The position numbers were made by a program, and so were the translations under genes. This document shows positions 45,702-49,544 of a stretch of 64,000 bases of DNA, in pieces (positions within the stretch are counted from its first letter, which is position 1; the number at the start of each line of letters is the position of its first letter). The notes below the pieces were generated by a model. The model was not told the DNA's origin. It saw only the letters and a program-made list of their open reading frames with translations, and ran no database searches. This DNA is from an uncultured bacterium. Lineage in GTDB: Bacteria; Nitrospirota; Thermodesulfovibrionia; Thermodesulfovibrionales; Thermodesulfovibrionaceae. The stretch lies in contig CALLBR010000015.1 in assembly GCA_937998865.1 (NCBI GenBank), positions 1-64,000 of the forward strand, given 5' to 3'.

Positions 45702-45728
45702 AAAAAAAGGGGAGAGTCTCTCCCCCCC
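45702..45728 (-). terminator. Strong terminator of the 19-codon mini-gene
   Basis: On the minus strand GGGGAGAG-A-CTCTCCCC (a perfect 8-bp inverted repeat around one base, flanked by more G residues) is followed by seven T residues. It begins about 12 nt after the mini-gene stop codon and ends before the TPR gene, so it isolates the mini-gene transcript. Confidence 0.88.
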
Positions 45729-45739
45729 TTCTTTAAATA

Positions 45740-45799
45740 TTAGCAAGAACCTTTGCATTTACAGGTGGGCATAGCCTTTCCTGATACCTTCTTGATCAT
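45740..45799 (-). CDS. 19-residue cysteine-rich peptide of unknown function
   Basis: The frame encodes MIKKVSGKAMPTCKCKGSC and then TAA. It is supported as a real gene by an excellent Shine-Dalgarno sequence (GGGAGGTG, 5 nt before ATG), an extended -10 promoter (TGCTATAAT, about 65 nt upstream of the start codon), a leader hairpin (45827-45845) and a dedicated terminator. Three cysteines occur in the last seven residues as CKCKGSC, which suggests metal binding, a redox or thioether motif, or a RiPP core after a short leader. No membrane segment is seen. I do not recognise the family, and no modifying enzyme or transporter is adjacent: radA is divergent and a TPR gene lies downstream. A regulatory leader peptide is an alternative. 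Confidence 0.7.
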   Translation of the reverse strand: MIKKVSGKAMPTCKCKGSC

Positions 45800-45826
45800 G
45801 GGGGCACCTCCCTTTCATAGGGATTT

Positions 45827-45849
45827 AAACCTCTTCATGAGGTTTTTTT
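45827..45849. promoter_or_regulatory. Hairpin in the mini-gene leader
   Basis: AAACCTC (45827-45833) pairs with GAGGTTT (45839-45845) around a TTCAT loop. On the minus strand it lies in the 5' leader of the mini-gene. On the plus strand it is followed by a T-run and looks like a terminator, although no plus-strand gene precedes it. Confidence 0.5.
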
Positions 45850-45869
45850 AAGCTTCATGCTCTAACTTA

Positions 45870-45878
45870 ATTATAGCA
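45870..45878 (-). promoter_or_regulatory. Extended -10 promoter of the 19-codon mini-gene
   Basis: TGCTATAAT reads leftward at 45878-45870. A start near 45863 gives a leader of about 64 nt that contains the hairpin and the strong ribosome binding site. No good -35 box is visible. The radA start region lies divergently about 35 nt away. Confidence 0.55.
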
Positions 45879-48747: not shown

Positions 48748-48794
48748 CTACTATTAATTAAATAAAAAACTCAATGAAAGGAGGTGAGGAAAAT

Positions 48795-49145
48795 ATGAGA
48801 AAAACTATGACACTCTTGATGGCAATAGCAATTGTATTTGTTCTTATTGGGGGTGTAGCTTATGCGTGGAAAGGTGGTGGTTGGGTTGGCAGTGGTCCTT
48901 ATTATGCTTCAGTAGATCCAGCAAAGGCGCAAAAATTTTACAATGACACCTTACCATTAAGACAGAAACAGCTTCAAATAAGGAGTGAGTTAATGCAACT
49001 TTATGGACAGCCAAATCCTAACTGGGATGCTATTGCAAAAAAACAACAGGAAATGCTTCAGATAAGGAACGAGATTCAAAAAAGAGCCTATGAATATGGT
49101 CTTCCCTATGGCAGAGGTATGAAAAGGTTTGGTAGAGGATGGTAA
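48795..49145 (+). CDS. Spy/ZraP-like periplasmic protein 1
   Basis: The 116-residue exported protein has a signal peptide (about 1-25, ending AYA) and a helical, Gln/Arg-rich hairpin (VDPAKAQKFYNDTLPLRQKQLQIRSEL...QQEMLQIRNEIQKRAYEYGLPYG). Layout and composition match the Spy/CpxP/ZraP family of periplasmic chaperones and metal sensors. The open frame begins at 48774, but ATG 48795 has the full Shine-Dalgarno sequence. A paralogue follows 45 nt downstream, and a sigma-54-type promoter precedes it. Confidence 0.82.
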   Translation: MRKTMTLLMAIAIVFVLIGGVAYAWKGGGWVGSGPYYASVDPAKAQKFYNDTLPLRQKQLQIRSELMQLYGQPNPNWDAIAKKQQEMLQIRNEIQKRAYEYGLPYGRGMKRFGRGW

Positions 49146-49190: not shown

Positions 49191-49544
49191 ATGAAAAGGG
49201 TTGTAAGTTTATTAGTAGTAGTGGCAGTAGTTATGACTTTTGTTGGTGTTTCATTGGCTCAAAGAGGTGCTGGTCCTGTGCAGTATCCAATTGGAGTTGA
49301 TCCTGCCAAAGCTCAACAGTATTGTAAGGAAATTCAACCACTTTGGCAAAAAGATTTACAGTTAAGAGGCGAGCTTTTAACTCTTTGGGCACAGCAAAAT
49401 CCGGATTGGAATGCCATTAAACAGAAAGAACAGGAAAGAGTATCACTTAAAGTAGATATGCAAAAAAAAGCCTATGAAATGGGTCTTCCTTATGGAAGCG
49501 GTGGTAAGAGAGCATTAAATATTAGAAGAATCTGTGGTTGGTAA
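49191..49544 (+). CDS. Spy/ZraP-like periplasmic protein 2 (tandem paralogue)
   Basis: The 117-residue protein is a clear paralogue of its upstream neighbour: both share VDPAKAQ, a QLQxRxEL/DLQLRGEL helix, NPxWxAI and the end AYExGLPYG. It has a signal peptide (about 1-23) and, unlike protein 1, cysteines in the helix start (YCKE) and at the very end (ICGW), which could bind metal or form a disulfide. AAAGGAGG precedes ATG. A terminator hairpin follows 6 nt after the stop. Confidence 0.82.
   Translation: MKRVVSLLVVVAVVMTFVGVSLAQRGAGPVQYPIGVDPAKAQQYCKEIQPLWQKDLQLRGELLTLWAQQNPDWNAIKQKEQERVSLKVDMQKKAYEMGLPYGSGGKRALNIRRICGW

Follow-up and report, generated by a model that had tools for sequence, protein, structure and literature searches.

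A conserved 19-codon cysteine-rich gene of the Thermodesulfovibrionaceae as a probable RiPP precursor with a distant radical SAM/SPASM maturase

The window analysed here is a 64,000-nucleotide stretch of DNA from an uncultured bacterium of the Thermodesulfovibrionaceae. On its minus strand, a frame of 19 codons is enclosed by expression signals, which raises the questions of whether so short a frame is a gene and what its product might do. An initial annotation had described an extended -10, a near-ideal ribosome binding site, an ATG, a 19-codon frame ending in CKCKGSC, a TAA and a strong terminator, all of which are present. The leader hairpin that it had also described is present too, with the number to be corrected from one to three, each with an AUGAA loop. 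The features are as follows:

45870..45878, minus strand: extended -10 promoter TGCTATAAT, with TATAAT kept in 16/16 members of the window's genus
45850..45862, minus strand: leader hairpin 1, GAGC-AUGAA-GCUU, found in the window's genus
45827..45845, minus strand: leader hairpin 2, AAACCUC-AUGAA-GAGGUUU, the counterpart of a covarying hairpin in other families
45809..45823, minus strand: leader hairpin 3, UCCCU-AUGAA-AGGGA, overlapping the ribosome binding site and covered by the covariance-model match
45805..45812, minus strand: ribosome binding site GGGAGGTG, partly within leader hairpin 3
45799 and 45742-45740, minus strand: start codon ATG and stop codon TAA, respectively
45740..45799, minus strand: predicted precursor peptide gene, 19 codons, MIKKVSGKAMPTCKCKGSC plus stop, with leader MIKKVSGKAMPT and core CKCKGSC
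45703..45734, minus strand: intrinsic terminator, a GC-rich stem of 13 pairs followed by a T run

A consensus scanner reported no two-hexamer sigma-70 site at the peptide gene, so the promoter call rests on the extended -10. Folding of the transcript beats 200/200 shuffles (z -3.6), with the terminator contributing much of that value. The neighbouring genes are a divergent radA and a gene for a tetratricopeptide-repeat protein. A tandem pair of similar secreted proteins (PYYASVDPAKAQKFYNDTLPLRQKQLQIRSEL and YPIGVDPAKAQQYCKEIQPLWQKDLQLRGEL) is encoded near the peptide gene, at 48774-49145 and 49191-49544.

The frame is present in 16/16 genomes of the window's genus at 79-100% identity, and it is also kept in most other families of the order. 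Within the genus, dS is ~1.8 and dN ~0.05 over the 19 codons (dN/dS ~0.03), a selection bias that vanishes when the peptide region is read in another frame. In the core CKCK-x-SC, x (G, S or N) is the one variable position among 65 distinct copies of the CKCK type, although the pattern behind these copies admits only those three residues and leaves out others. Cysteines are invariant in the same copies, while the Cys and Lys codons vary and all three stop codons are in use. The window contains the core motif once, and 100 shuffles never contain it; across the phylum it is found in 123/396 genomes, where a reversed control pattern matched once. Judged by sequence conservation, the 19-codon frame is a genuine gene, as the initial annotation had proposed, and one far under usual annotation limits and thus invisible to annotation. 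The initial annotation had also reasoned that hairpins conserved without the frame would indicate a small RNA. Frame and hairpins are both conserved, and the frame is under selection, with amino acids kept while codons vary, which speaks against that reading.

The leaders of CKCK-type genes contain a hairpin with a constant closing pair and loop, C-A[UCA]GAA-G. At least three further pairs accompany 52/55 such heptamers in these leaders, compared with 47/411 in background DNA. Selection of the sequences in the leader alignment (A6) for three or more such pairs inflates the share that it shows as paired, and the variety of compensatory changes is the stronger point: they occur at 5/6 pairs of helix 1, with a covariation of 0.614 versus 0.173 in shuffles. 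A second conserved hairpin, CCCU-AUGAA-AGGG, overlaps the ribosome binding site. The covariance model (R1) has one match in the window's genome, at the peptide gene itself (45797-45845, E 1.5e-15), and in 61 genomes every match with E up to 1.2e-8 sits at peptide loci. A weaker match (E 1.1e-5; L312 1500-1550) lies upstream of a ferredoxin gene in genome G052 and is probably due to chance. No Rfam family matched the leader at gathering score, the sub-threshold matches being chance-level only. We infer that the leader provides dedicated translational control responding to a ligand.

A candidate partner is visible in other families of the order, where the same peptide is encoded directly behind a predicted RRE-radical SAM-SPASM enzyme on the same strand. 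The frame 5′ of the peptide there encodes a radical SAM protein of ~375-400 residues that ends in a SPASM-like CDC...CRGGCRYRA segment. The window's genome encodes an ortholog of this enzyme on another contig (G000:C39:32284-33426), beside a gene of the metallo-beta-lactamase fold. Enzyme and peptide lie within ~200 bases on one strand in 18/31 enzyme-bearing genomes outside the window's genus, by our reading of the coordinates. They are never adjacent within the genus, where orthology and co-occurrence provide the link. Across 61 genomes, orthologs of the enzyme were found in nearly all peptide-bearing genomes and in none without the peptide. Among 396 genomes of the phylum, 114 contain both, nine the peptide motif only, three the enzyme only and 270 neither (odds ratio 1140; Fisher p 4e-84, a value that overstates independence, the counted genomes being related). 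Some of the nine motif-only genomes are probably chance motif matches or assembly gaps. Presence and absence of peptide and enzyme track each other across families. Besides a metal or redox peptide and a stand-alone signal, the initial annotation had considered a modified peptide with a distant maturase, and the ortholog, the adjacency elsewhere and the co-occurrence all support this last option. The gene is thus well supported as a RiPP precursor whose maturase is encoded at a distance, and modification would take place in trans. No dedicated protease or exporter was identified for the peptide.

The cysteines of the SAM-cluster motif CxxxCxxC and those of the SPASM region are conserved in the maturase alignment. 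Its radical SAM core has the sactisynthase SkfB as best PDB sequence relative (4.6e-22). The first 80 residues were modelled from 21 relatives (pLDDT 86), and the top-ranked PDB matches to this model in Foldseek are leader-binding RREs and RRE-bearing RiPP enzymes, namely TbiB1 with leader peptide, SuiB, a lasso-peptide B1 protein and cyanobactin heterocyclases. The best E is only 4.5e-3 (probability 1.00), and it is the consistency of the top matches by which the modelled N-terminal domain looks RRE-like. The maturase falls below the NCBIfam cut-off of every named peptide-maturase model listed, matching only the Radical_SAM superfamily, and the precursors have no match in Pfam or NCBIfam. By these profile comparisons, peptide and maturase form a family apart from every named family tested.

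A paralogous subtype with the core CKCH[SQNK]SC is found in copper/heavy-metal operons, sometimes with two peptides per operon (L099 1913 and 3640; L107 4032; L113 3952; L263-L281). Pfam families among the neighbours of CKCHxSC peptides (n=110) include YHS domains (13), E1-E2 ATPases (7) and heavy-metal-binding domains (4), and Met-rich secreted proteins and a multicopper oxidase were seen nearby by eye. Among the neighbours of CKCK-type peptides (n=111), radical SAM was found in 24, and the YHS, E1-E2 ATPase and heavy-metal-binding families are absent from the 25 commonest. The paralogs' copper operons suggest a metal-binding product, and a metal role is a reasonable extrapolation from them, although the copper link concerns the CKCHxSC subtype and the neighbours of CKCK-type peptides show no copper context. 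Of the metal or redox peptide that the initial annotation had considered, it is the metal part that gains from these paralogs, whose relative in the window may bind metal as well. Because both subtypes have the leader-like N-terminus in common, a single maturase may act on the two in trans. Genome G025 (93% complete) is a counter-example: it has two CKCHxSC peptides, but a maturase was not found there. Given this genome and several other motif-bearing genomes without the enzyme, modification may be dispensable, at least for the CKCHxSC subtype.

Other genes recur at these loci. A Fe/Mn superoxide dismutase gene adjoins the CKCK peptide at four loci (including L117 5356-5931 and L112 3152-3727), some of them also with peroxiredoxin, nitroreductase or rubrerythrin-like genes. 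Dissimilatory sulfite reductase (dsrA) was rejected as a linked function: it is nearly universal in the order, and no convincing dsrA was found in genomes G016, G032 and G054, which carry both peptide and maturase. No link to the peptide follows. A cupin near the enzyme in Desulfobacteraceae was likewise rejected as a partner, being patchy and unspecific. In many lineages the maturase has next to it a small Cys protein (CxxC...CGG) that matches nothing in Pfam or NCBIfam (L117 3583-3993, L136 4595-4987, L145 4555-4968, L147 4826-4990), and this protein also co-occurs (40/2/2/12 in the better genomes). We do not count it as a fixed third component, as its homolog in the window's genus is beside cutA (G000:C17:65851-66141 in the window's genome) and its model is poor (pLDDT 67). 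In L068 and L077 it is fused to a cupin.

The enzyme extends well beyond the phylum. When genome contigs were scanned with the maturase alignment (A1), it was detected in Desulfobacterales, Desulfarculaceae, Rokubacteriota, Actinobacteria, Methanoperedens, Archaeoglobus and Lokiarchaeota, and enzyme and precursor were found together in Archaeoglobus, Methanoperedens, Desulfobacterota, Rokubacteria, an actinobacterium and Lokiarchaeota. Short frames of the same build lie near the enzyme in Methanoperedens (MKIRKIKKTARGTCKCHSSCA), Archaeoglobus (MKIEKVRKESGICKCNASCA and VKIKKVERKKTGVCKCGTSC) and Desulfarculaceae (MKIKKIERTKRGLCKCKSSC), and the family-wide build in bacteria and archaea is MxI[KR]K…CxCxxxC in 19-21 residues. 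The Lokiarchaeota precursor (L156 near 1612), ~3 kb from the enzyme gene, has two cores, SCKCGGDAC...SCKCGGDAC; core repeats are frequent among RiPP precursors. In Methanoperedens, the maturase is followed by a phytoene-desaturase-like FAD enzyme (L147 6155-7717), and a fragment of a similar protein is found in Lokiarchaeota (L156 6309-6719). A literature search found the motif string in no relevant paper and a description of the family in no open paper, subscription journals and most preprints lying outside the search; the peptide family is apparently undescribed so far.

Given the selection on the gene, its pairing with the enzyme, the RRE-like/SPASM architecture, the RNA element and the copper context of the paralogs, the gene is very likely a RiPP precursor modified in trans by a radical SAM/SPASM maturase, which would yield a small intracellular thiol/metal peptide. 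The strong-looking promoter would give a short monocistronic RNA, whose AUGAA-loop hairpins could adjust translation. The N-terminal MxI[KR]K leader would then dock on the RRE domain of the maturase, which in the window's genome is encoded on contig C39 and would act in trans. The C-terminal CKCKGSC core would be modified, most likely via its cysteines, a thioether link being the commonest precedent. The resulting thiol or metal peptide would have a conserved housekeeping role, while the paralogous CKCHxSC subtype would serve in copper-resistance operons.

Three other explanations may be considered. The peptide could stay unmodified, as a tiny metal-binding thiol peptide of the mini-metallothionein or copper/iron chaperone kind, with the radical SAM enzyme acting elsewhere and merely co-occurring. 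CxCxxxC with a neighbouring His makes a plausible thiolate metal site, the CKCHxSC paralogs lie in copper operons, and G025 has two such peptides with the maturase not detected. Nevertheless, the adjacency of peptide and enzyme in both bacteria and archaea, the strength of their co-occurrence, the modelled RRE-like domain and the leader-like N-terminus of both subtypes make this improbable. An explanation that deserves somewhat more credit, though still unlikely, is a special form of the preferred one with its first steps in common: the peptide could be the source of a small redox cofactor in the fashion of PqqA or MftA, with the enzyme and partners rearranging and excising part of the core. 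Consistent with this are a very short, highly conserved, cytoplasmic peptide shared across phyla and domains with no exporter recognised, the small Cys protein that often travels with the enzyme, and the phytoene-desaturase-like oxidoreductase after the enzyme in Methanoperedens. Yet a conserved set of processing enzymes and a consuming dehydrogenase family were not identified, the window's genus lacks a pathway cluster, and the copper-operon paralogs point to metal handling.

The transcript could also be mainly a regulatory RNA or attenuator, its frame encoding a leader peptide that responds to Cys or Lys charging, as conserved hairpins and a terminator flank the frame. This is very improbable: it is the amino acids and not the codons that are conserved, the downstream genes differ among lineages, the conserved hairpins lie entirely upstream of the frame, and the CKCHxSC paralogs have no AUGAA-loop hairpin, the heptamer being altogether absent from their leaders. 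On balance, the locus is best read as encoding the precursor of a new RiPP family, cofactor-like or metal-handling, that would be modified in trans in the window's genome.

A wider proposal, which we hold to be about evenly balanced, is that of an unrecognised RiPP family of bacteria and archaea in which one RRE-radical SAM-SPASM maturase serves several 19-21-residue CxCxxxC precursors in trans. The housekeeping form would be controlled by a dedicated RNA hairpin element, and the copper-linked form would belong to metal-resistance operons, the modified core being a new peptide metal ligand or cofactor. The family spans Nitrospirota to Archaeoglobus and Lokiarchaeota, with a maturase outside every named family tested. 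The present case shows that a precursor gene may end up far from that of its maturase, where RiPP mining based on clusters overlooks it. Enzyme, precursor and paralogs make a directly testable system.

Several known systems offer comparisons. PqqA and MftA, the precursors of PQQ and mycofactocin, are very short, conserved, cytoplasmic and used by a SPASM radical SAM enzyme. The present core differs in its three cysteines, their partner set was not seen, and the maturase is under the MftC and PqqE cut-offs. Sactipeptide synthases share the radical SAM core, for which SkfB is the best PDB match and which the StsB and AlbA models match in the same region; however, the present maturase is far under the SkfB, AlbA and StsB family cut-offs, and an export/immunity cluster is absent. 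Bacteriocin precursors are diversified, whereas the present precursor is conserved.

The SCIFF ranthipeptide resembles the present family in that a whole bacterial group keeps a Cys-rich precursor together with a radical SAM-SPASM maturase bearing an RRE, a domain that is predicted in the present enzyme, and its wide conservation argues against an antimicrobial role (PMC8326336). SCIFF has six cysteines in about 45 residues, unlike the three (CxCxxxC) in 19-21 residues here. The SCIFF-maturase model (TIGR03974) gives an Archaeoglobus member 55 of 425 bits, far under its cut-off, and for the window's enzyme it does not appear among the 25 best models. By analogy, the peptide may work as a SPASM RiPP that is conserved but not antimicrobial, the role proposed for SCIFF, without being a SCIFF member. 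Metal binding, if true, would account for such a role. Bufferins, oxazolins and methanobactins are Cys-based peptides tied to copper homeostasis (PMC12452194), and the CKCHxSC paralogs resemble them in a copper link that comes from gene context. Those peptides use MNIO enzymes, however. MNIO (PF05114) is absent from the window's genome, while control genomes gave matches, and the peptide is therefore not a bufferin or methanobactin. Bufferins also carry Sec signal peptides, for which a 19-residue peptide is too short. Should the product be a metal binder, it would stand beside the copper RiPPs made by MNIO enzymes as a counterpart made by a radical SAM enzyme.
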